From contig NZ_CP068082.1 of assembly GCF_016724845.1 (NCBI RefSeq), positions 3,906,001 to 3,970,000 of the forward strand: 64,000 nt of DNA, written 5' to 3'. Positions 19,401 to 40,163 of this stretch are shown piece after piece. Origin of the DNA: Sphingobacterium spiritivorum. Its GTDB lineage: Bacteria > Bacteroidota > Bacteroidia > Sphingobacteriales > Sphingobacteriaceae. The notes under the pieces were generated by a model. It saw nothing but the letters and a program-made list of their open reading frames with translations, was not told the origin of the DNA and made no database searches. Each line of letters begins with the position of its first letter. Position 1 is the first letter of the stretch. The translations under genes and the position numbers were made by a program.

Positions 19401-21356
19401 TTAATATTCAAGTACCTTTATTTCAGTTCGTCGATTAGCCTGATGCTCTGCATCTGTACATTTTACCCCGTCTTTACACATATTAATTAATCTGCTTTCC
19501 CCGTAGCCTTTAGCTATAATTCGGTTTCGGGCTATACCTTGGCTTACTATATAATCCACCGCAGACTGCGCCCGGTTCTGAGATAATTTCATATTGTATT
19601 TAGCTGTAGCTCTGCTGTCTGTGTGACTTGAAAGCTCGATTTTAAGACTCGGGTTGTCCCGAAGAGTATGGACCAATTGGTTGAGAACAGGTTTAGCATC
19701 TTCTCTGATATTAGATTTATCCAGATCGTAGTAAATATTCTCTAATGTAAAACTTATTCCTTTTTCAATTACTGGCTGTAAATGAAGTGTCAGATGGATT
19801 GTAGTATCACGATTGGCAATAGGAGTTGTGAAAACTACCGAATCTCCGTGAAAACCGAGCTTCTCTCCAACAATGCTATAATGCAACCCGGCATCAGTTG
19901 GGAAGTTAAATTCGCCATTTTGACTACTTAATTTGCTCTGAAGTATTTGCCCTTTTTCATTCTGCAATGTCAGTTGTACAGCTGTGAGTGGTTCTGAAGT
20001 AGCTTTGTTCAATGTTTGCCCTTCCAGGTACAGATGAATTTTTGGTTGCTGAAAAGAGAAGGAATAGATATCATCCAGCCCTTTTCCTCCCATACGATTT
20101 GAAGACAGATATCCGTAAAAAGACTCGCGACTGTCATGAATAACTACATATGAAAAATCATCTGAAGCGGAGTTTACCGGAAAGCGAAGATTTTTGGATC
20201 TGCTGAATTTATTTTCTTTTATTTCACTCATAAATACATCCAGTCCTCCCATACCAGGGAAACCATTACTGGAATAATAAAGTATATTTCCGGAAAGGGA
20301 GGGAAACATCTCGTCCCCGGATGAATTAACTTCCGGGCCTGCATTTACCGGTTTGCCCCAGCTACCGTCGGGTTGACGTATACAATACCAGATATCTACG
20401 CCTCCCATTCCTCCGGGCATATCCGAAGCAAAATAAACTGTGGCTTCATCCTCGCTAAGTGCAGCATGTCCTGTAGAGTAGCTCTTTTTGTTATTATATG
20501 GAAAAGGGGTGGCTGTCCAGGAATCTCCGGATCGTGTATAAATGATTAGCTCCAGGTTATGTTTGTTGAATGTATAGTTGCCTGATCGTTGTTTTTCTGC
20601 ATCTTTACCGGGGTAGGTACGGGTGACAAACAGGGTATTTCCTTCTTTATTGGTGGCGACAGGCCCAACATGATATTCTGTATCGTTAAATACATCGGGC
20701 AGGATGTTGGGATATAATAAGGTAGTAGCATTTTTATCCCGGCTTGCTGAATACACGCGAAGATACGGCCGGCCGGTACGTCCGGAAATGCCTGTACTCC
20801 AGGTGCTGGGTTCACCGGCATATAAGACATTGTTATGAAGCGGGATAGTACCAAATTCAGAATAGCGTGTGTTGACGCCATCCTCATTCTTTAGTTTATG
20901 TAAGGTAGGTGAAGCCATCCATATGACTGCAGAATCAGCTCCCTGTATTGAAAGGGTCACCTCATCAGCCTTACCTGTACGTGTACCATACTGACGGAAC
21001 TGTTCTTTGGCCGCACTATAATTTCCTGTCATCTTCAGTAAATCTGCATAAATCAGTTGCGATCGATCTGAAAATTTACCTTGACTTATAATGCGGGCAT
21101 ACCAGTTTTGTGCCAGACTATAGTTATCAATAAGGTAATAACATTCAGCAAGACGCTCCATATCCTGAAGACGGGGTTTCTTTGTGTCAACGAGCTTCTC
21201 ATAAATACGAGCCGCACTATAATATTCGTATTGATGATAAAGTTTATCAGCAGTTGCTCTGAGACTTACCTGCTCCTGAGCTTTTACTGAAATTACTACG
21301 CTCAACAATGCTCCGATAGCCAGTAGTTTATATATAGAATGTAGTTTTTTTGCCAT
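19401..21356 (-). CDS. OmpA-family protein with PD40/TPR region (PorE-like)
   Basis: About 651 residues from the chosen ATG at 21356, which gives a clean signal peptide (MAKKLHSIYKLLAIGALLS to VKAQEQ); the frame extends 20 residues further upstream without a signal. Order: a TPR-like helical part (about 30-130), a PD40/WD40-like beta-propeller (about 150-420; repeats such as GNILYYSSNGFPGMGGLDVF), a carboxypeptidase-regulatory-like domain (about 440-520), and a C-terminal OmpA domain binding peptidoglycan (LSSHTDSRATAKYNMKLSQN, then NRRTEIKVLEY). This is the architecture of PorE, a T9SS accessory that links outer-membrane parts to the wall. It is last in the six-gene minus-strand cluster, after PorP/SprF and a type B CTD protein, a pairing common in Bacteroidota. 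Known as a family; its role with the fibre genes is inferred. Confidence 0.9.
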   Translation of the reverse strand: MAKKLHSIYKLLAIGALLSVVISVKAQEQVSLRATADKLYHQYEYYSAARIYEKLVDTKKPRLQDMERLAECYYLIDNYSLAQNWYARIISQGKFSDRSQLIYADLLKMTGNYSAAKEQFRQYGTRTGKADEVTLSIQGADSAVIWMASPTLHKLKNEDGVNTRYSEFGTIPLHNNVLYAGEPSTWSTGISGRTGRPYLRVYSASRDKNATTLLYPNILPDVFNDTEYHVGPVATNKEGNTLFVTRTYPGKDAEKQRSGNYTFNKHNLELIIYTRSGDSWTATPFPYNNKKSYSTGHAALSEDEATVYFASDMPGGMGGVDIWYCIRQPDGSWGKPVNAGPEVNSSGDEMFPSLSGNILYYSSNGFPGMGGLDVFMSEIKENKFSRSKNLRFPVNSASDDFSYVVIHDSRESFYGYLSSNRMGGKGLDDIYSFSFQQPKIHLYLEGQTLNKATSEPLTAVQLTLQNEKGQILQSKLSSQNGEFNFPTDAGLHYSIVGEKLGFHGDSVVFTTPIANRDTTIHLTLHLQPVIEKGISFTLENIYYDLDKSNIREDAKPVLNQLVHTLRDNPSLKIELSSHTDSRATAKYNMKLSQNRAQSAVDYIVSQGIARNRIIAKGYGESRLINMCKDGVKCTDAEHQANRRTEIKVLEY

Positions 21357-21444
21357 TATTTTGCTGTTATCAGGAAACCTTTGAGATGGTATTCCTCTAT
21401 AGTTATTATAGATCATTATTTCTGCTGTACATCCTTGATTTCTC

Positions 21445-22458
21445 TTAGAAAAAACGTGGGCTCAGGTATTGGCTCGCCCCGCGGCTTCCGAATGTCAGTC
21501 CCAACGTGATTTCATGAGATCCATTTTGTAGCCCACTCATACGGTTGATCATTGCATCATACGAATACCCGATACGTAACCGTTCGGTCACATAGAACTG
21601 TGCAATACCGGTAATGGCGTTCATTGCGCTTAGTTTGTCTACAGTATGATCCTGATAAGCGCGGTTAAAGAGTTTAGCCCGTGTACGATATCCTGCTCCT
21701 ATCCAGAATTTGCTGTTGAAGATTAACATCGTATTTATATCCAGCGATGTCGGTCCTTTAAAATCTTCTTTTAGCAGCATACTGGGCCGGAGGTGGACAC
21801 CCTGACTCAACTCCAACAACATACCTGAAATCACATACATACTTACCGTACGATAGAGATTTTCAGAAGTATTCAGATTGAACCGGTAGTCTGAACCGGA
21901 ATTTGTACCATTGAAAAGATCCTGTACTGATACTCCGGCATACCAGCGGGGATTAGTGTAGTATACACCTAAGCGGATATCCGGAGCCCAGTCCGATATT
22001 TTTCCTCTTGGAATTATCTGATCATTATAATCGTTGGGATCCAGTTTATTTCCATCAAGACTGTATTGGGTGACGCCCGCTGCAATGCCGAGACTTAGTC
22101 GCTGTGTATCTTCGTCATCCAGTTGTAAACGGAAAGCATAGTTTCCATAGATGGCTGTTGCTGCCTGTGCACCCAATTTGTCTGCAGTGAGGTTAAGCCC
22201 TACAGCATGTCGTTTATTCTGCGCATCTAAAATACCATCTATTGAGACCGTTCCCGTTTTTGGCGCTCCTTCCCAGCCTGTCCACTGGCTACGCAGGCCT
22301 ACCTGTGCAAACCATTCTTCCTTGTAGCCTGCATAAGCCGGATTCACACTCATGGAGTTGAAAATGTATTGCGTAAACTGGATACTCTGCTGGGCATAGC
22401 TCTTACAGAAGCCAACTAGCCCCGTCAGTGTGAGTAAAATGTATTTTCTGTATTTCAT
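21445..22458 (-). CDS. PorP/SprF-family T9SS outer-membrane protein
   Basis: 337 residues. Outer-membrane beta-barrel of the PorP/SprF family, needed in studied species for secretion or surface attachment of proteins with type B T9SS C-terminal domains. The signal peptide ends at KSYAQQS. The family start is clear: IQFTQYIFNSMSVNPAYAGY, then VGLRSQWTGWEGAPKT. Later segments ALGLNLTADKLG-like (VGLNLTADKLGAQ) and the C-terminal LRIGYSYDAMINRMSGLQNG and SHEITLGLTF are typical. It sits between the type B CTD gene and the PorE-like gene with gaps of 38 and 88 bases, so it is likely the dedicated partner of the upstream-encoded secreted protein. Confidence 0.93.
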   Translation of the reverse strand: MKYRKYILLTLTGLVGFCKSYAQQSIQFTQYIFNSMSVNPAYAGYKEEWFAQVGLRSQWTGWEGAPKTGTVSIDGILDAQNKRHAVGLNLTADKLGAQAATAIYGNYAFRLQLDDEDTQRLSLGIAAGVTQYSLDGNKLDPNDYNDQIIPRGKISDWAPDIRLGVYYTNPRWYAGVSVQDLFNGTNSGSDYRFNLNTSENLYRTVSMYVISGMLLELSQGVHLRPSMLLKEDFKGPTSLDINTMLIFNSKFWIGAGYRTRAKLFNRAYQDHTVDKLSAMNAITGIAQFYVTERLRIGYSYDAMINRMSGLQNGSHEITLGLTFGSRGASQYLSPRFF

Positions 22459-22496: not shown

Positions 22497-24083
22497 TTAT
22501 TGGGGTTTGATCAATACATCTCCTTTGAACACACGTGTTTCTCCACCCTTCGTAGCTTCGATAATATAGAAATAGGTGCCTGTATTCAGACCGCTGCCAT
22601 TCCATTTATTATCATAAGTACTGTTACGATATACTTCATTTCCCCAACGGTTGACAATGGTTACTCCAATACGATCATAATATTCATAGCCGATAATCTC
22701 AAAATAATCGTTGATACCATCTCCGTTAGGAGTGAATACATTCGGAATATGAAGGTCGCGGGAAAGGATATTAAGTGTCACACGGGCTGTATCTGAAAGA
22801 CCATATTCGTCAGTGATGCTATATTCAAAGGAATCTTCTCCTATGTAGCCCGGATCGGGGGTATAAGTGATGCTACCATCTATATTGACAGTTACTTTTC
22901 CATGTTGCGGCTGACTGAGTATAGTGACTGAAGAAACGATAATGGGGCTGGATCCTGCATTGTCATTTTGCAATACATGTAATTGATTTTCCTTGTTGAG
23001 ATATTCATCTGCATAGGCTATCGTAAAGGTGTCATCATTGGCTTCAGGACCCTTGTAGCTGAACTTAGTCATCCAGGTACCGCTCAGCGTGGGAGCAGCA
23101 TAAGCTAATACGTCCTGCCGGCTGTGTATACCTGTCCCTATTAATGTGGTAACATCTCCAATCCAGTTGCCATTGCCGGAATATTGCATAATTTCTGCTT
23201 TGCTATCCACAAAGAGATTTCCATTGGTGATGGCCTGATGAATAAGGGTGTAATCCGCTCTTAGCTCCTTACTGGCATAGATATGCCAGATACGGTCCAT
23301 ACCCACTTCTGTATCCTTAATCTGGATTGTTGTCGCAGCTTTATAATCTATAACGCCCACATGGATATCATCGGCTGCTTTTGGAGTAAGGATTGCGGGA
23401 GTGTAACTGCTTTCATTTATACCTACCGGAAACAGAAACTTTTCCCCCTGTTTCAGACTCTTTACAAGTGAACTGCCTGGTATATTACCTGTCACGACAT
23501 AACCGCGTATATTCTGATTCGGAATGTTAATACTACCTGCGTTCAATAACTGGGCATTAGATCCCAGCATCAGTTCAAATCCGTTGAGCAGAATATCCCC
23601 TCCCTGTACATTAAAATCGATATTAGCATCTACTCTCAGACTTGCGGTATTATTTATTCCTGTCTGAATACCGTATCCCGGATCTGAAATGTCTGCCAAC
23701 TTGATATTAGAAGGGTTGTCAATTGTAATATTTACCTTAATAAATTCTCCGCTATTTGCATCGATCAGTGTAGGTTGATTACCCCAGCCTGAATAGTAAG
23801 GATTGGAGCCTGGATCTTTCAGGATAAGTTTACCACTTCCGGTGATTTTGGCAGTAGGAGCAATCCATACTTTAGTACTGTAGATATATAAGTCTCCGTC
23901 AATCTGCCATTCTGCATTAGGGCCTATAAAGAGACTTTCAGAATATATAACATCCGCTGTGCCCTCAGAAACGATAAAATAGGAGTTATTTGAAAAATCG
24001 GAATTTTTGCCATTTTGAGCGTATAGAGATAGGCTAAACATCCCAATGGCAGTACTAAGGAAAAATTTGATAGAATTTTTCAT
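22497..24083 (-). CDS. Secreted protein with T9SS type B (gliding-motility) C-terminal domain
   Basis: 528 residues from the ATG at 24083, chosen because it starts a signal peptide (MKNSIKFFLSTAIGMFSLS, to YAQN); the frame runs 33 residues further upstream without sense. The N-terminal ~330 residues are beta-rich and Asn/Gly-rich, probably a beta-helix or sandwich adhesin. Residues about 345-440 form a cadherin-like/VCBS-type module (NDDTFTIAYADEYLN; HGKVTVNIDGSITYTPDPGY). The last ~90 residues are the CHU_C-type domain: IPNVFTPNGDGINDYFEI, VTIVNRWGNEVY, NTGTYFYIIEA, FKGDVLIKPQ. Known: such domains direct export through the T9SS and surface anchoring with PorP/SprF partners, encoded next door here. 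Confidence 0.9.
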   Translation of the reverse strand: MKNSIKFFLSTAIGMFSLSLYAQNGKNSDFSNNSYFIVSEGTADVIYSESLFIGPNAEWQIDGDLYIYSTKVWIAPTAKITGSGKLILKDPGSNPYYSGWGNQPTLIDANSGEFIKVNITIDNPSNIKLADISDPGYGIQTGINNTASLRVDANIDFNVQGGDILLNGFELMLGSNAQLLNAGSINIPNQNIRGYVVTGNIPGSSLVKSLKQGEKFLFPVGINESSYTPAILTPKAADDIHVGVIDYKAATTIQIKDTEVGMDRIWHIYASKELRADYTLIHQAITNGNLFVDSKAEIMQYSGNGNWIGDVTTLIGTGIHSRQDVLAYAAPTLSGTWMTKFSYKGPEANDDTFTIAYADEYLNKENQLHVLQNDNAGSSPIIVSSVTILSQPQHGKVTVNIDGSITYTPDPGYIGEDSFEYSITDEYGLSDTARVTLNILSRDLHIPNVFTPNGDGINDYFEIIGYEYYDRIGVTIVNRWGNEVYRNSTYDNKWNGSGLNTGTYFYIIEATKGGETRVFKGDVLIKPQ

Positions 24084-24221
24084 ACTAATACATGTTTGTA
24101 CCTTCATGTACAGATCACGGTACCTTGCTGACAGCAATCTAAAACTGTCCATACCTGTTATTAATCTGCTGTATAGTTTCATCTTCAGGTCTGTTTATTG
24201 TTACTCCTTGTTTTACGATTT

Positions 24222-25022
24222 TTATTGTACAGGAACTGCGTAAAAATAATTTTCAGAATTGTTGGTCGCATATTGGAAAATATCAGTGGCCCACCTTTGA
24301 AGAACAAGATATATAGTTACTCCTGCGGATGCAGTTACATTAATAACCGAACTTCCGGATATAAAACTTGTCCCATTTGTATCAGTTGGCGAGGCTTTAG
24401 CAGCTTTCAGCAATATACCGGCATAGCAGGTGTTATTACCGGCAGGACCTGAATGGGTAAAGTCTGCCTGCGCTATACTTGCTGGGCTAGAAGATAAGTA
24501 ACAATGTTGCCAGCTGTCGCTACTGATATTATTAAATGTCATGCCTGCATTTACTGCCCATTTACCCTGAGGAAGAGTGATGGATACACCGGAAGCGACA
24601 TAGTTACCCGTTCCGTCATTTGCATGTACAGTATTGGCGGTGCCGGGGAAATCCCCTAATACGGTGGGACGAAATGCCGGAACCAAAGTCCAGCTGCCAA
24701 TTCCGTTTGCATCACTGGTCAGTACATAGCCATTGGCCTGTGTACCATCTATAATCTTAATGGCAGCTCCGGCAATGCCGTTATCAATAACGAGTTTTGT
24801 GGTAGGGGCTATGGTGCCAATACCAACATTACCTGTATTGGTAACGACAAAATCATTAGCAGGCTGTGTCCCTGTAGGGGCTCCGCTGGCATTATTATCT
24901 TTACTGCCATCTACATGAAGGACAGTTTGGGGATTTTTGGTATTGATTCCTGTATTTTGTGCGTAAGCGGATGCAAAGCAGATCGTAGCAAGCGCTGTAG
25001 CTATAATTTTAAATGTTTTCAT
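24222..25022 (-). CDS. Secreted tail-fibre-like protein, paralogue of the next gene
   Basis: 266 residues from the ATG at 25022 (signal MKTFKIIATALATICFASAY, then AQN); the frame starts 7 residues earlier. After the signal comes NTKNPQTVLHVDG and the collar-like repeat VGIGTIAPTTKLVI, a pattern common to phage tail-fibre and Bacteroidota surface-fibre proteins. The C-terminal ~130 residues (from about 135) are beta-rich and predicted to form a globular head: LPQGKWAVNAGMTF, QHCYLSSSPASIAQ, ENYFYAVPV. No T9SS C-terminal domain is present. It is clearly related along its whole length to the protein at 25104. Function unknown; a fibre tip or minor subunit is a reasonable guess from context. Confidence 0.75.
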   Translation of the reverse strand: MKTFKIIATALATICFASAYAQNTGINTKNPQTVLHVDGSKDNNASGAPTGTQPANDFVVTNTGNVGIGTIAPTTKLVIDNGIAGAAIKIIDGTQANGYVLTSDANGIGSWTLVPAFRPTVLGDFPGTANTVHANDGTGNYVASGVSITLPQGKWAVNAGMTFNNISSDSWQHCYLSSSPASIAQADFTHSGPAGNNTCYAGILLKAAKASPTDTNGTSFISGSSVINVTASAGVTIYLVLQRWATDIFQYATNNSENYFYAVPVQ

Positions 25023-25103
25023 TGTGTTGTATATTAATAACATTAGATATTATTTGCTTATGCAGATAGACTGATATTTCATTATGGTAAAAAGTATCCG
25101 ATA

Positions 25104-25880
25104 TTAATCTATTGGTTTCGCAAAAAAATAGTTTTCCAGATAACTTTGTGCATTGAATTCGTAAGCACCCGTGGGCTGATTCTGTAACATAAGGTAGATG
25201 ATGGCCGTAGATGCTGTTACTTCTATGGCTGCACTACCTGTAACAAATCCACGTTGACCAGTTGCACTCTTATCAGTGATATTGGTTGCTACTATCCCAC
25301 CATAACTGCTCTGCGCCCCCGCAGGCCCCAAATAAGTAAAACCATTTTGCTGCAAAGCACTATTTGAAGATGAAAGATAACAGCGTTGGAATATGGTTCT
25401 GTTACCTTGTACAAAGGTAATCCCTGCATTTACTATCCATTTTCCTCTGGTTAGTGCTATGTATATATTTGAATATTTTGGAGTTTCTCCTCCATCTGGT
25501 GTTACCTTTGCATTGCTTGAAAAAATACCATTAACTACCACTTTTGATACAGCCGGATAATTCCACTTGGCAAGACCGCTGGCATTACTGGTCAGCACAC
25601 TTCCAGCCTGCTCTCCTCCATCTATAATCTGGATTTTTCCCCGGATATCCAACTTGTGTGTAGGACTGATAGTTCCTATTCCTACACTGCCGGCTGATGT
25701 GACTACAAAATCGTCAGCTTCCTGTGTAGTCGGATTATTATCTTTTTTAGCATCCACGTGCAGGACAGCTTGTGGATTTTTGGTGTTAATGCCGGCCTGC
25801 TGAGCCTGTAATGTGGCCAATCCGGAAATCCATAACAACAGCAGTAATGATGTCGTCAAACTATTGATTTTCTTTTTCAT
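25104..25880 (-). CDS. Secreted tail-fibre-like protein, paralogue of the previous gene
   Basis: 258 residues with a signal peptide (to LATLQAQQ). It shares the same order as its neighbour: INTKNPQAVLHVDAKKDNN, VGIGTISPTHKLDIRG, a linker (SVLTSNASGLAKWNYP), then a beta-rich C-terminal head (LTRGKWIVNAGITF, FQRCYLSSSNSALQQ, LENYFFAKPI). It begins 8 bases after the stop of the giant repeat gene, strongly suggesting one transcript. The two small proteins probably arose by tandem duplication. They lack membrane anchors and T9SS C-terminal domains, so how they reach or stay on the surface is open. I do not recognise the head domain. Confidence 0.75.
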   Translation of the reverse strand: MKKKINSLTTSLLLLLWISGLATLQAQQAGINTKNPQAVLHVDAKKDNNPTTQEADDFVVTSAGSVGIGTISPTHKLDIRGKIQIIDGGEQAGSVLTSNASGLAKWNYPAVSKVVVNGIFSSNAKVTPDGGETPKYSNIYIALTRGKWIVNAGITFVQGNRTIFQRCYLSSSNSALQQNGFTYLGPAGAQSSYGGIVATNITDKSATGQRGFVTGSAAIEVTASTAIIYLMLQNQPTGAYEFNAQSYLENYFFAKPID

Positions 25881-25888
25881 GACTAGTA

Positions 25889-28800
25889 TTACTTTGTATG
25901 AGAAGGCTGTGTTCCGTAAAGTTTTTCGATACGTTCCAGACGTTCGTTCATATTTTTTACGGTTTCCTTTAATGTTTCAATCTCCCGGTCCTTGTTGTCT
26001 AACTGTTTCTTTTGTTCGATAGTATGCAGATATAATTCTTCTACTTTTTCCAGTATCTGGACACTGAGTTCGGATATATTAAAAATATATTCGCCTTTCT
26101 CATTTTTGCTCAGTCCTTTGATCCCTGTAACCCCCGGAAGATGTTTGTTTTCATTTATAAAAGTTTCTACTTCATCTAAAGATTTAAATGAATAGTCACT
26201 ATTCAGCTTAGAAGTTCCTTCAAGATAATCTTCAAAAACGTAATCAGCATATAGTGAAGACGCTGTAGTAATAGTTCCGTTGACATATAGTTTGGCATTT
26301 GCGTCTGCTCCGGTCAGAGCAGTTGCCCCAGCTCCAATGGCCACATTGCCTGTCTGGTAAATATTATCTGTATTGGTAGTTGCACCGTTGGAAGTTCCTT
26401 GTACTCTCCAGGGTTCCAATTTGTTTTGGTCTATCCATTGTGGTATTCCTGTTCCGCCAGTGATTAGTACCTGATTGCTGCTGGCAATGGCTATCTTTTC
26501 AGGTGTAAGTGTGCTATTGGCAATATCTGCATTAACAATAGTAGCATCGGTTATTTTTGTTGAAGTAATGGATCCATCAGCTATGCTTAAAACGGCATCG
26601 GCCAAAACAGAGCTGGCTAGCGAGTTAACTGTATTCACTTTAATAATACCATCGGTAGTTATTGTTTTACCTAAGCTGGTTGCTACATTTGCAGGATTTA
26701 CAGATAGTTCTCCATTGACAATATTTACAGTCGGGTCGGTAGCAGCTTCTTTTACTACCCCTAAGGTTGTTGCATTTGCTGTTGCTACATCTACACTAAA
26801 AGGTTTTAATACTGCTCCTGTTGGAGTACCACCAAGTATAACTTTAGAGCTCCCTGCAGTTACATCTTTACCTAAGCTGGTTGCTACATTTGCAGGATTT
26901 ACAGATAGTTCTCCATTGACAATATTTACAGTCGGGTCGGTAGCAGCTTCTTTTACGACCCCTAAGGTTGTTGCATTTGCTGTCGCTACATCTACACTAA
27001 AAGGTTTTAATACTGCTCCTGTTGGAGTACCACCAAGTATAACTTTAGAGCTCCCTGCAGTTACATCTTTACCTAAACTGGTTACTACATTGGCAGGATT
27101 TACAGATAGTTCTCCATTGACAATATTTACAGTCGGGTCGGTAGCAGCTTCTTTTACTACTCCTAAGGTTGTTGCATCTGCTGTTGCTACATCTACACTA
27201 AAAGGTTTTAATACTGCTCCTGTTGGAGTACCACCAAGTATAACTTTAGAGCTCCCTGCAGTTACATCTTTACCTAAACTGGTTACTACATTGGCAGGAT
27301 TTACAGATAGTTCTCCATTGACAATATTTACAGTCGGGTCGGTAGCAGCTTCTTTTACTACTCCTAAGGTTGTTGCATCTGCTGTTGCTACATCTACACT
27401 AAAAGGTTTTAATACTGCTCCTGTTGGAGTACCACCAAGTATAACTTTAGAGCTCCCTGCAGTTACATCTTTACCTAAACTGGTTACTACATTGGCAGGA
27501 TTTACAGATAGTTCTCCATTGACAATATTTACAGTCGGGTCGGTAGCAGCTTCTTTTACTACTCCTAAGGTTGTTGCATTTGCTGTTGCTACATCTACAC
27601 TAAAAGGTTTTAATACTGCTCCTGTTGGAGTACCACCAAGTATAACTTTAGAGCTCCCTGCAGTTACATCTTTACCTAAACTGGTTACTACATTGGCAGG
27701 ATTTACAGATAGTTCGCCATTGACAATATTTACAGTCGGGTCGTTGGCAGCTTCTTTTACTACTCCTAAGGTTGTTGCATCTGCTGTTGCTACATCAATA
27801 GTGAAAGGTTTTAATACAGCTCCTGTTGGGGTACCACCAAGTATAACTTTAGGGCTTCCTGCAGTTACATCTTTACCTAAACTGGTTGCTACATTAGTTG
27901 TATTTACAGCTAGCGTTCCGTCAGTTGCAATATTTACTGTTGGATTAGCGGATGCTTCTTTTACTACCCCTAAGGTTGTTCCATTGGCTGTTGCTACATC
28001 ATATTTATAAGGTGTGGTACTAGTCCCGTTTCCAGTTAAAGTGGCATTGGTTCCATTAGCGAACTTTAATGCATTTTGTATTGCAGGTGCTAAGTCTAAT
28101 GCTGTAGCAGGGACCCCATTTACTGTCGTAGTCAGATTTGAACCGGATAAGCTGTTTGCAACCGTATTGACAACTTTCGCTGTAGCTGTTACTCCGTCTA
28201 CTGTTGATGTAATTGTATTTGTTCCGTTGTTCACTAAGGTGTTTGTCGTAGCAGGAACCAATGTGTTTTGGTTTACCCATTGTGGTAATCCTGTACCGTC
28301 AGTGATGAGTACCTGATTGTTACCTGCATTGGCTAATTTGGACGGTGTAATTACACCGTCATTTATATTTGCTGTTACAGTTGTAAGGGTTGCCCCTGTT
28401 CCGCCTGTTATATTCAGATCTGTAGAAGTAAAATCTTTACCAATACCTCCCGCACCTGAAGTGTTCACGGACAACGTTCCGTCGGCCGCTACCGACAATC
28501 CGGAGCCTGGTTTTACCGCTCCGGTAGATGTTGTTGTAGCAGGAGTTACATTTATGGTATAAGCGGTGTTGTTACCAACCGTGGAGGAAGTCACAGAGGT
28601 TGCTGTTCCTGCGACAACTGTTGTTGTTGTTTGATTGTTTTTGACCAGCGTACTTATGTCCAGACTATTCTCATTACCTTTCTCGTCTTTGTAGATTAGC
28701 TTGTTGTTGACCGGATCATAACTGAGTACGGTCAGTGTCTCATTTCCTGTAACCAGTGAACTGATATCAATAGGAGTGGGTACGCCTTTTTCGTCTGTAT

Positions 28801-31432
28801 AGGTTAATATCTTATTTGAATTGTCGTAAGCGAGAGTTGTGAGCGTTTCGTTGTTTTTAACCAGATTGCTGATATCTATTGTGTTGATTGCTCCCTTCTC
28901 ATCTTTATATGTCAAAGTATTTGTCTGTGCATTGTAGCTGAGTACGGTCAGTGTCTCATTTCCTGTAACCAGTGAACTGATATCAATAGGAGTGGGTACG
29001 CCTTTTTCGTCTGTATAGGTTAATATCTTATTTGAATTGTCGTAAGCGAGAGTTGTGAGCGTTTCGTTGTTTTTAACCAGATTGCTGATATCTATTGTGT
29101 TGATTGCTCCCTTCTCATCTTTATATGTCAAAGTATTTGTCTGTGCATTGTAGCTGAGTACGGTCAGTGTCTCATTTCCTGTAACCAGTGAACTGATATC
29201 AATAGGAGTGGGTACGCCTTTTTCGTCTGTATAGGTTAATATCTTATTTGAATTGTCGTAAGCGAGAGTTGTGAGCGTTTCGTTGTTTTTAACCAGATTG
29301 CTGATATCTATTGTGTTGATTGCTCCCTTCTCATCTTTATATGTCAAAGTATTTGTCTGTGCATTGTAGCTGAGTACGGTCAGTGTCTCATTTCCTGTAA
29401 CCAGTGAACTGATATCAATAGGAGTGGGTACGCCTTTTTCGTCTGTATAGGTTAATATCTTATTTGAATTGTCGTAAGCGAGAGTTGTGAGCGTTTCGTT
29501 GTTTTTAACCAGATTGCTGATATCTATTGTGTTGATTGCTCCCTTCTCATCTTTATATGTCAAAGTATTTGTCTGTGCATTGTAGCTGAGTACGGTCAGT
29601 GTCTCATTTCCTGTAACCAGTGAACTGATATCAATAGGAGTGGGTACGCCTTTTTCGTCTGTATAGGTTAATATCTTATTTGAATTGTCGTAAGCGAGAG
29701 TTGTGAGCGTTTCGTTGTTTTTAACCAGATTGCTGATATCTATTGTGTTGATTGCTCCCTTCTCATCTTTATATGTCAAAGTATTTGTCTGTGCATTGTA
29801 GCTGAGTACGGTCAGTGTCTCATTTCCTGTAACCAGTGAACTGATATCAATAGGAGTGGGTACGCCTTTTTCGTCTGTATAGGTTAATATCTTATTTGAA
29901 TTGTCGTAAGCGAGAGTTGTGAGCGTTTCATTGTTTTTAACCAGATTGCTGATATCTATTGTGTTGATTGCTCCCTTCTCATCTTTATATGTCAAAGTAT
30001 TTGTCTGTGCATTGTAGCTGAGTACGGTCAGTGTCTCATTTCCTGTAACCAGTGAACTGATATCAATAGGAGTGGGTACGCCTTTTTCGTCTGTATAGGT
30101 TAATATCTTATTTGAATTGTCGTAAGCGAGAGTTGTGAGCGTTTGGTTGTTTTTAACCAGATTGCTGATATCTATTGTGTTGATTGCTCCCTTCTCATCT
30201 TTATATGTCAAAGTATTTGTCTGTGCATTGTAGCTGAGTACGGTCAGTGTCTCATTTCCTGTAACCAGTGAACTGATATCAATAGGAGTGGGTACGCCTT
30301 TTTCGTCTGTATAGGTTAATATCTTATTTGAATTGTCGTAAGCGAGAGTTGTGAGCGTTTCGTTGTTTTTAACCAGATTGCTGATATCTATTGTGTTGAT
30401 TGCTCCCTTCTCATCTTTATATGTCAAAGTATTTGTCTGTGCATTGTAGCTGAGTACGGTCAGTGTCTCATTTCCTGTAACCAGTGAACTGATATCAATA
30501 GGAGTGGGTACGCCTTTTTCGTCTGTATAGGTTAATATCTTATTTGAATTGTCGTAAGCGAGAGTTGTGAGCGTTTCGTTGTTTTTAACCAGATTGCTGA
30601 TATCTATTGTGTTGATTGCTCCCTTCTCATCTTTATATGTCAAAGTATTTGTCTGTGCATTGTAGCTGAGTACGGTCAGTGTCTCATTTCCTGTAACCAG
30701 TGAACTGATATCAATAGGAGTGGGTACGCCTTTTTCGTCTGTATAGGTTAATATCTTATTTGAATTGTCGTAAGCGAGAGTTGTGAGCGTTTCATTGTTT
30801 TTAACCAGATTGCTGATATCTATTGTGTTGATTGCTCCCTTCTCATCTTTATATGTCAAAGTATTTGTCTGTGCATTGTAGCTGAGTACGGTCAGTGTCT
30901 CATTTCCTGTAACCAGTGAACTGATATCAATAGGAGTGGGTACGCCTTTTTCGTCTGTATAGGTTAATATCTTATTTGAATTGTCATATGCGAGAGTTGT
31001 GAGTGTTTCGTTCGCTTTGACAACATCCTTCAAATTAATTGTTACAGGATTACCATTGACATCTATAAATGACATCTCGAATGTTGACGGATTGTAGGTA
31101 ATATTAATAGCTCCATATGAGTTCCCTACGGCAATCCACTTGTGTCCGTCATTATAATATATCCCGGGAGAAACATCACCGACTTTTGCCGTATTATATA
31201 CCATCATACCCAGTACATGTTGATTACTCTGTAATGGAGCAGGATTAGTAGTGGATTGTAGCTCTACTCTTGAAAAGAGTAACCCTTTGTACTTACTTGA
31301 TAACTCAAGTATGGCATCTTTATTTGGCAAATTTGATGCTCCGGAGATCGAACCGTCTCCGATTTTCTGCTGAGCATATCCCGTTGCTACTGCAAGACAT
31401 GATAGCAGCACTAATAATGAATGTTTTTTCAT
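25889..31432 (-). CDS. Giant secreted repeat protein, tail-fibre/adhesin-like (1847 residues)
   Basis: Signal peptide (1-20, to TGYAQQ). An N-terminal domain (21-140) has motifs shared by many Bacteroidota fibre proteins (NKDAILELSSKYKGLLFSRV; GIYYNDGHKWIAVG). Residues 141-932 are 11 repeats of 72 residues, each of two related 36-residue halves with the pattern NETLTxLxY...LTYxDEKG...IDISxLV. A linker (933-1180) has tail-fibre phrases (STGAVKPGSGLSVAADGTL). Residues 1181-1582 are 6 repeats of 67 residues (TSLGKDVTAG...TTLGVVKEA...NGELSVNPAN). The end holds LYADYVFEDYL, SLDEVETFINENKHLPGV and a coiled coil (about 1795-1840), the stem typical of trimeric fibres. No T9SS C-terminal domain or lipobox is seen. 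It heads the six-gene cluster. A long trimeric surface fibre for adhesion is the best reading; a length-variable stalk is inferred from the repeats. Confidence 0.88.
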   Translation of the reverse strand: MKKHSLLVLLSCLAVATGYAQQKIGDGSISGASNLPNKDAILELSSKYKGLLFSRVELQSTTNPAPLQSNQHVLGMMVYNTAKVGDVSPGIYYNDGHKWIAVGNSYGAINITYNPSTFEMSFIDVNGNPVTINLKDVVKANETLTTLAYDNSNKILTYTDEKGVPTPIDISSLVTGNETLTVLSYNAQTNTLTYKDEKGAINTIDISNLVKNNETLTTLAYDNSNKILTYTDEKGVPTPIDISSLVTGNETLTVLSYNAQTNTLTYKDEKGAINTIDISNLVKNNETLTTLAYDNSNKILTYTDEKGVPTPIDISSLVTGNETLTVLSYNAQTNTLTYKDEKGAINTIDISNLVKNNETLTTLAYDNSNKILTYTDEKGVPTPIDISSLVTGNETLTVLSYNAQTNTLTYKDEKGAINTIDISNLVKNNQTLTTLAYDNSNKILTYTDEKGVPTPIDISSLVTGNETLTVLSYNAQTNTLTYKDEKGAINTIDISNLVKNNETLTTLAYDNSNKILTYTDEKGVPTPIDISSLVTGNETLTVLSYNAQTNTLTYKDEKGAINTIDISNLVKNNETLTTLAYDNSNKILTYTDEKGVPTPIDISSLVTGNETLTVLSYNAQTNTLTYKDEKGAINTIDISNLVKNNETLTTLAYDNSNKILTYTDEKGVPTPIDISSLVTGNETLTVLSYNAQTNTLTYKDEKGAINTIDISNLVKNNETLTTLAYDNSNKILTYTDEKGVPTPIDISSLVTGNETLTVLSYNAQTNTLTYKDEKGAINTIDISNLVKNNETLTTLAYDNSNKILTYTDEKGVPTPIDISSLVTGNETLTVLSYNAQTNTLTYKDEKGAINTIDISNLVKNNETLTTLAYDNSNKILTYTDEKGVPTPIDISSLVTGNETLTVLSYDPVNNKLIYKDEKGNENSLDISTLVKNNQTTTTVVAGTATSVTSSTVGNNTAYTINVTPATTTSTGAVKPGSGLSVAADGTLSVNTSGAGGIGKDFTSTDLNITGGTGATLTTVTANINDGVITPSKLANAGNNQVLITDGTGLPQWVNQNTLVPATTNTLVNNGTNTITSTVDGVTATAKVVNTVANSLSGSNLTTTVNGVPATALDLAPAIQNALKFANGTNATLTGNGTSTTPYKYDVATANGTTLGVVKEASANPTVNIATDGTLAVNTTNVATSLGKDVTAGSPKVILGGTPTGAVLKPFTIDVATADATTLGVVKEAANDPTVNIVNGELSVNPANVVTSLGKDVTAGSSKVILGGTPTGAVLKPFSVDVATANATTLGVVKEAATDPTVNIVNGELSVNPANVVTSLGKDVTAGSSKVILGGTPTGAVLKPFSVDVATADATTLGVVKEAATDPTVNIVNGELSVNPANVVTSLGKDVTAGSSKVILGGTPTGAVLKPFSVDVATADATTLGVVKEAATDPTVNIVNGELSVNPANVVTSLGKDVTAGSSKVILGGTPTGAVLKPFSVDVATANATTLGVVKEAATDPTVNIVNGELSVNPANVATSLGKDVTAGSSKVILGGTPTGAVLKPFSVDVATANATTLGVVKEAATDPTVNIVNGELSVNPANVATSLGKTITTDGIIKVNTVNSLASSVLADAVLSIADGSITSTKITDATIVNADIANSTLTPEKIAIASSNQVLITGGTGIPQWIDQNKLEPWRVQGTSNGATTNTDNIYQTGNVAIGAGATALTGADANAKLYVNGTITTASSLYADYVFEDYLEGTSKLNSDYSFKSLDEVETFINENKHLPGVTGIKGLSKNEKGEYIFNISELSVQILEKVEELYLHTIEQKKQLDNKDREIETLKETVKNMNERLERIEKLYGTQPSHTK
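26687..27892 (-). repeat. Tandem repeat B within the giant fibre gene: 6 x 201 bp
   Basis: Six in-frame units of exactly 201 bases (67 codons). A fixed landmark, AGGTTTTAAT on the plus strand, recurs at 26801, 27002, 27203, 27404, 27605 and 27806. Units differ in blocks: the two lowest-coordinate units share one set of variants (for example CTAAGCTGGTTGCTAC), the next three another (CTAAACTGGTTACTAC), and the sixth is most diverged. A degenerate further half-unit follows at about 27893-28020. Confidence 0.93.
28637..31012 (-). repeat. Tandem repeat A within the giant fibre gene: 11 x 216 bp
   Basis: Eleven in-frame units of exactly 216 bases (72 codons); the plus-strand landmark GGGTACGCC recurs every 216 bases from 28778 to 30938. 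Ten units are almost identical in DNA. I could see only single-base differences at one codon (near 29925, 30141 and 30789) until the outer edges, where the first and last units diverge. Each unit is itself a diverged duplication of a 108-base half. Confidence 0.95.
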
Positions 31433-31782
31433 ATCAATGTCAATAATTGAAAATATTACTTAGATGTAAACCTTAAAATAATCAGGTGTTAATTCCCCTT
31501 TATAAATCTATTTTTTGCGAATATATAGATAGATAATCCGGATTCTAAAGTAGTAAAAAATTTGTAGTACAATAGCTACATTTTAAATTAAATGAATGAA
31601 TATTCTGTTTTTTTATAAGAGATATAACTACACGTTATTATCTAGCTTGTAGCTATTTCTCCACAAACAAAATATGTAACCGTTCGGTGTTTAATTATTG
31701 TTCAGAAATTCAATGAGATATGATCTTTTATAACAAAATTTTAAAGCCAATTATTGAATCACTTATATTTTAAGATGGGATC
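31433..31782. other. AT-rich region upstream of the giant fibre gene
   Basis: 350 bases with no credible gene. It must hold the promoter of the minus-strand fibre cluster, but I found no clean TAnnTTTG box with a -33 TTG. The leader is strongly AT-rich. Confidence 0.35.
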
Positions 31783-31824
31783 AAAAAAAAGCCTCTTTTA
31801 GAAAACTAAAAGAGGCTTTTTTTT
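31783..31824 (-). terminator. Terminator of the J-domain/KTSC gene
   Basis: Perfect 19-bp stem (31783-31801 with 31806-31824), loop AAAA, core GCCTCTTTTAG. Eight A/T pairs at the base give a T-run on either strand. It isolates the KTSC gene from the fibre cluster. Confidence 0.92.
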
Positions 31825-31853
31825 TATTTTGATAAATTGAATAATAGCTAAAA

Positions 31854-39841: not shown

Positions 39842-40163
39842 ATTCTCTCCTTTCCAAGGAGAGATGCCCGTAGGCAGAGAGGTTGATTGTAAAAGTTAAT
39901 AGGGTTTATAAAGTAGATAAAGTTAAGAAGTGATAGAGTTAGAGGGTTGTACTTGTGTCTGTGCTACTACTGTTGCTGCTATTCTCTCCTTTCCAAGGAG
40001 AGATGCCCGAAGGGCAGAGAGATTGATTGTAAAAGTTAATAGGGTTTATAAAGTAGATAAAGTTAAGAAGTGATAGAGTTAGAGGGTTGTACTTGTGTCT
40101 GTGCTACTACTGCTGTTGCTATTCTCTCCTTTCTAAAGAGAGATGCCCGTAGGGCAGAGAAGC
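39842..40163 (+). repeat. Tandem intergenic palindromic repeats, family 1 (two full units and one partial)
   Basis: Units start at 39842 (139 bases), 39981 (140 bases) and 40121 (partial, ~43 bases); a degenerate trace precedes at 39803. Each begins with a hairpin CTCTCCTT/AAGGAGAG, then a second, TGCCC/GGGCA, then AT-rich spacer (AAAGTTAATAGGGTTTATAA) and a short GTGCTACTACTG tract. The two spacers are nearly identical. It is non-coding. A single inverted relative lies at 17740-17783. Confidence 0.85.

Follow-up and report, generated by a model that had tools for sequence, protein, structure and literature searches.

The eleven almost identical 216-bp units carried by a single large gene of Sphingobacterium spiritivorum quite likely correspond to the stalk of a T9SS-linked, probably homotrimeric surface fibre, the array of which would be homogenised by its own recombination and the length of which would be evolvable. 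According to this reading, the array encodes the stalk region of a giant secreted protein, probably assembled into homotrimers, and the 72-aa unit would have gone through repeated rounds of copying and homogenisation within the gene via homologous recombination between units, by unequal exchange, slippage or conversion, so that each species would possess its own near-uniform version of the unit and its own copy number. Attachment of the fibre would occur through the adjacent type B, PorP and PorE-like proteins. The analysis deals with a window of 64,000 nucleotides, located on a chromosome that consists of one closed contig of 5.28 Mb.

The product of the fibre gene, of 1847 aa, successively comprises a signal peptide, an N-terminal domain, a first repeat array (array 1), a linker, a second repeat array (array 2) and a C-terminal domain, distributed along the window as follows:

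31780..31827, strand not assigned: likely bidirectional terminator upstream of the fibre gene, a 22-nt inverted repeat with T runs
25889..31432, minus strand: fibre gene, ORF of 1847 aa
31013..31372, minus strand: N-terminal domain, aa 21-140, with 49-93% identity across Sphingobacteriaceae
28637..31012, minus strand: array 1, eleven units of 216 bp (72 aa), delimited by Tandem Repeats Finder and in-frame reading
28637..28744, minus strand: B half of unit 11 at the edge of array 1, from the half-unit tree
26666..28000, minus strand: array 2, 6.6 copies of a 201-bp (67-aa) unit, from Tandem Repeats Finder
25892..26416, minus strand: C-terminal domain, aa 1673-1847, present across Bacteroidota

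The signal peptide, read by eye, corresponds to MKKHSLLVLLSCLAVATGYA-QQ, and the C-terminal domain terminates in a long predicted helix with a heptad pattern (residues 199-248 of the AlphaFold model). Apart from the signal peptide, no surface anchor was recognised in the sequence of the fibre: searches of Pfam and NCBIfam revealed neither the CHU_C / TIGR04131 sorting domain, which does occur in a neighbouring protein of 561 aa, nor any match to the YadA-type membrane anchor. The lack of a recognisable T9SS sorting domain counts against the preferred reading, which accounts for neither the export route nor the anchor of the fibre. The Pfam matches of the full protein to DUF903 (104 bits) and TraI_2B (59 bits) were rejected because their scores are summed over the repeats, with no single stretch passing, and the NCBIfam match to PaeX, which likewise adds up over the repeats, was discarded as well.

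The presence of eleven near-identical in-frame repeats at 28637-31012, described in the earlier note, was confirmed. Tandem Repeats Finder delimited a repeat of period 216 at 28722-31012, with 10.6 copies, 99% matches, no indels and a score of 4540, far above chance, and the in-frame reading of the minus strand, from 31012 down to 28637, delineates eleven 72-residue units spaced by exactly 216 bp. Six of the eleven units (3, 4, 7, 8, 9 and 10) share exactly the same bases, units 2 and 6 contain AAT instead of AAC, which is synonymous, and unit 5 contains CAA instead of GAA (E to Q), all these changes occurring within codons 1-2. The core units are about 99% identical, and units 1-10 differ from one another by at most four bases. 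The description of the core as varying by single bases is accurate, but the variable spot covers two adjacent codons instead of one, and one of the variants, AAC to AAT, is itself synonymous; unit 1 has three further synonymous changes, the rest of it being core-like. Similarly, the outermost units had been considered diverged, which is correct for unit 11, with its first 131 bases identical to the core and 38 of the remaining 85 bases different, but not for the hardly diverged unit 1, so that divergence is one-sided. Each 72-aa unit is built up from two related halves of 36 residues, A and B, which differ at 46 of 108 bases, result from an old duplication and are older than the 72-aa unit itself. 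A whole-genome search found no copy of the array-1 unit elsewhere in the genome, which places the donors within the array.

Orthologues were compared from the window genome (G000), from a second Sphingobacterium species with a closed genome (G059) and from Pedobacter nanyangensis (G324), which possess 11, 17 and 9 units of 216 bp, respectively. In these arrays the units are alike inside each array and synonymously saturated between species. Between G000 and G059, the units display a pS of 0.82, for a mean pN of about 0.13, and the unique flanks a pS of 0.49 (N-terminal) and 0.58 (C-terminal); within G000, any two core units are separated by 0 or 1 synonymous change. Against 48 fixed differences, only 2 sites are polymorphic in the G000 core. 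For units that have been independent since the split between G000 and G059, around one half of the 50 synonymous sites would be expected to differ within any pair of G000 units, and the chance of finding at most one synonymous difference per core pair is then about 1e-13. The latest homogenisation of the core is estimated to fall within the most recent 1% or so of the time elapsed since the split, a value derived, at an assumed constant rate, from 1-2 synonymous changes among the nine core units, with about 50 sites per unit, versus a dS of 0.8-1.1 between the species.

In the half-unit tree, the A and B halves are split from each other (support 1.0) and, inside each half, the units cluster by species, with the exception of half 11B of G000, which joins 01B/14B of G059 (support 1.0). 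Species-wise clustering accompanied by a stray edge half is what results when recombination goes on within an array but bypasses its edge, and the B half of unit 11 has escaped homogenisation. In the older arrays of G059 and P. nanyangensis, the four-gamete test fails for 187 of 703 and 254 of 561 site pairs, respectively, part of which can be accounted for by repeated mutation, and units 1-3 of G059 are mirrored by units 14-16 (permutation p = 0.0035); both features are regarded as footprints of recombination. Since the number of units has changed, at least one of unequal exchange and slippage is needed, conversion being indistinguishable from both in these data. At the level of the compared sequences, concerted evolution of the array and a change of copy number between species are demonstrated. 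The earlier proposal of a recent amplification or conversion is supported by the contrast between 0-1 synonymous change within the array and the saturation between species, together with the half-unit tree, and the likely variation in length that had been put forward is supported between species, by the unit counts of the orthologues and by those of a paralogue found in the same genome:

C1:2525208-2532635 of G000 (= L027 5209-12636): a 2475-aa paralogue with a different array, of sixteen 264-bp units

The arrays of this paralogue comprise about 16 and 18 units in two species, with 7 fixed differences between them in a comparison from which the misaligned C-terminal flank was left out, and seem to follow the same concerted tendency as array 1. 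A CHU_C gene and a PorP/SprF gene occur a few kb downstream of the paralogue.

Array 2 belongs to the same ORF of 1847 aa and falls outside the coordinates considered in the earlier note. Between its five inner units, 0-8 bases are different. It is absent from the orthologue of the sister species G059, and would have been either gained in the window species or lost in the G059 lineage; P. nanyangensis has a single unit related to it. The 511-aa ORF on the opposite strand (26475-28010, plus) is a by-product of array 2 and does not count as evidence of a gene. Another tandem repeat of the window, at 39842-40160, consists of 2.3 copies of a 140-bp unit with 95% matches.

Either the number or the uniformity of the units could in principle be a product of the assembly or polishing steps, an explanation that appears improbable. 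Draft genomes of the genus often break at such arrays, which are hard to assemble: in several drafts of relatives the locus meets a contig end in or beside the array, and in G042, G064 and G039 the array stops at most one base away from where the contig ends. The N runs inside the arrays of some relatives (L021, L034 and L036) were kept out of the evidence. The caution previously expressed about assembly is fair in general, but the genome considered here is one closed contig, the variants along array 1 form a non-periodic pattern with a distinct edge unit, and closed genomes (G000, G059 and G054) have arrays of 11 to 20 units, those of the two relatives being long and one of them clearly non-uniform. 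Because of the closed contig, the count of eleven units is credible and probably sound, short of proof. It is hardly credible at all that selection on the nucleotide sequence or on codon choice keeps the units uniform: the protein sequence of the unit is indeed conserved between species, as indicated by the low pN, but the codons for the shared residues are saturated with synonymous differences, so that no fixed nucleotide sequence is required, and an explanation of the uniformity by constraint on the nucleotides is contradicted by the pS of 0.82 between species. The uniformity of array 1 results from concerted evolution and not from such a constraint.

The fibre gene is the first of six genes located on the same strand and separated by gaps of 8, 60, 39, 38 and 28 bp, the other five being the following:

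25104..25880, minus strand: secreted protein of 258 aa, second gene of the unit, after the 8-bp gap that follows the fibre gene
24222..25043, minus strand: secreted protein of 273 aa, of a design related to that of the 258-aa protein
22497..24182, minus strand: protein of 561 aa in which a bacterial Ig-like domain accompanies a CHU_C / T9SS type B sorting domain (Pfam, NCBIfam)
21445..22458, minus strand: outer-membrane protein of 337 aa of the PorP/SprF family (Pfam, NCBIfam)
19401..21416, minus strand: OmpA-like protein of 671 aa in a PorE-like place, named from gene order and sequence reading

This order is kept in G059, and several other relatives display the same order minus the two small genes; the position of the OmpA-like gene downstream of PorP/SprF is conserved. 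A PorP/SprF gene occurs within the fetched flanks of 53 of the 79 loci that contain the C-terminal domain, compared to a chance expectation of about 2% calculated from the window genome (7 PorP/SprF genes per 5.3 Mb) and of about 11% predicted from the densest genome checked (27 in 4 Mb). SprA, the T9SS translocon, is present in the window genome. In Porphyromonas gingivalis, PorP is bound by the type B cargo and itself binds PorE (PMC9143113); in F. johnsoniae, operons with the same composition have been proposed to form static complexes (PMC12618676). The fibre would be located at the surface, attached via the products of the neighbouring genes and contributing to adhesion or cell contact, and its length may also vary within a species. 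With respect to the CHU_C gene at 22497-24182, the listed start is probably too far upstream, the signal peptide starting at an internal MKNSIKFFLSTAIGMFSLSLYAQ. Additional CHU_C matches occur in G000 at C1:390100, 409916, 533527 and 333811; the open frames that contain them range from 2192 to 4628 aa, are all close to a PorP/SprF gene and may hold similar arrays.

When the full protein was used as a query against the genome contigs, nothing was found; an alignment of the C-terminal domain as query retrieved at least 79 loci, distributed in Pedobacter, Mucilaginibacter, Flavobacterium, Chryseobacterium and others. Tandem arrays with an in-frame period are common among these loci. Twelve homologous genes with the same C-terminal domain possess collagen-like Gly-X-Y stalks, the longest of which, with up to 525 triplets, occurs in Pedobacter polaris (L066 2046-8501), the others being L050, L060, L063, L069, L071, L072, L074, L097, L101, L103 and L125; the N-terminal domain is also present in L066, L101 and L103. 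Collagen-like tracts work as triple helices, so that a trimer is the natural assumption for the fibre family, and the collagen-like homologues, together with the long C-terminal helix, suggest that the fibre of the window is trimeric. The designation as a fibre, already used in the earlier note, is plausible and is strengthened by the collagen-like stalks of the homologues, and is still something that we infer.

Structural modelling gave poor models, a further point against the preferred reading. The AlphaFold2 model of the N-terminal and stalk part (mean pLDDT 53.5) shows strands plus one short helix in each half-unit, and that of the C-terminal part reaches a mean pLDDT of 55.2. The WD40-type matches of the stalk model in Foldseek are meaningless (TM-scores <0.2, rmsd mostly >20, pLDDT 53). 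The structural search with the C-terminal model yielded no match with E <2, profile searches of PDB sequences yielded coiled-coil or chance matches only, and Pfam, NCBIfam, PDB profiles, PHROG and the structural search revealed no relative of the stalk among known domains, folds or PDB entries. A monomeric extended stalk, of the strict Periscope type, is an unlikely alternative to the trimer: highly identical repeats of such a size do define the Periscope class (PMC8201768, PMC9704523), but homologues with the same end domains bear collagen-like stalks, i.e., triple helices, and the long C-terminal helix is coiled-coil-like. The possibility of a phage tail-fibre gene left in a prophage remnant, or of a captured phage fibre, is very remote, even though the overall design recalls tail fibres and the 72-aa unit weakly matches a PHROG tail fiber family (best E = 5.6e-4), since the gene is part of a cellular T9SS-type unit conserved across Bacteroidota, the protein begins with a signal peptide, and the genes beside it are cellular secretion genes, with no phage genes among them.

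The proposed trimeric fibre shares features with several known systems. Periscope Proteins (Whelan et al. 2021, PMC8201768; review PMC9704523), which are monomeric by definition and vary in repeat number among strains, resemble it by their large and highly identical tandem repeats (72 aa here) in a presumed surface protein, by a repeat number that differs between relatives (here 11, 17 and 9 in three species) and by the homologous recombination proposed as the cause, but differ in that a trimer is proposed here and variation is known between species only. A search for the word "Bacteroid" in these two papers gave no occurrence. The YadA-like trimeric autotransporter adhesins have in common with the fibre a putative trimeric stalk, a variable repeat number and a coiled-coil segment, but Pfam revealed no YadA-type membrane anchor in the window protein; variable stalks of trimeric adhesins are already known (PMC9704523). 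The PG1035-PorP-PorE and SprB-SprF systems (PMC9143113, PMC12618676) share the neighbouring CHU_C type B, PorP/SprF and OmpA-like genes, and differ by the repeat protein, which has no type B domain and is encoded by an additional gene at the head of the unit. With bacterial collagen-like proteins the likeness concerns the homologues of the window gene, which carry Gly-X-Y in place of the stalk, whereas the window protein contains a beta-rich 36/72-aa repeat and no Gly-X-Y. The principle of evolvable surface stalks of variable length is already known (PMC8201768, PMC9704523); a literature search among open-licence papers found no description of a T9SS-cluster-linked fibre family with exchangeable stalks.

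It is tentatively conceivable that such trimeric fibres, linked to T9SS clusters, occur throughout the Bacteroidota, with fixed ends and an exchangeable recombining stalk, made of beta-repeats or collagen-like, which would set the length of the fibre for each lineage and perhaps for each cell, and that their route to the surface involves no recognised T9SS signal. In practical terms, draft genomes of Bacteroidota understate such repeat proteins. If the preferred reading is true, array 1 would provide a clear example from nature of concerted evolution within a single bacterial gene, the idea of the variable-length stalk would extend to a widespread fibre family of the Bacteroidota, and this family would be tied to the T9SS type B / PorP / PorE units, the cargo of which is only partly known.
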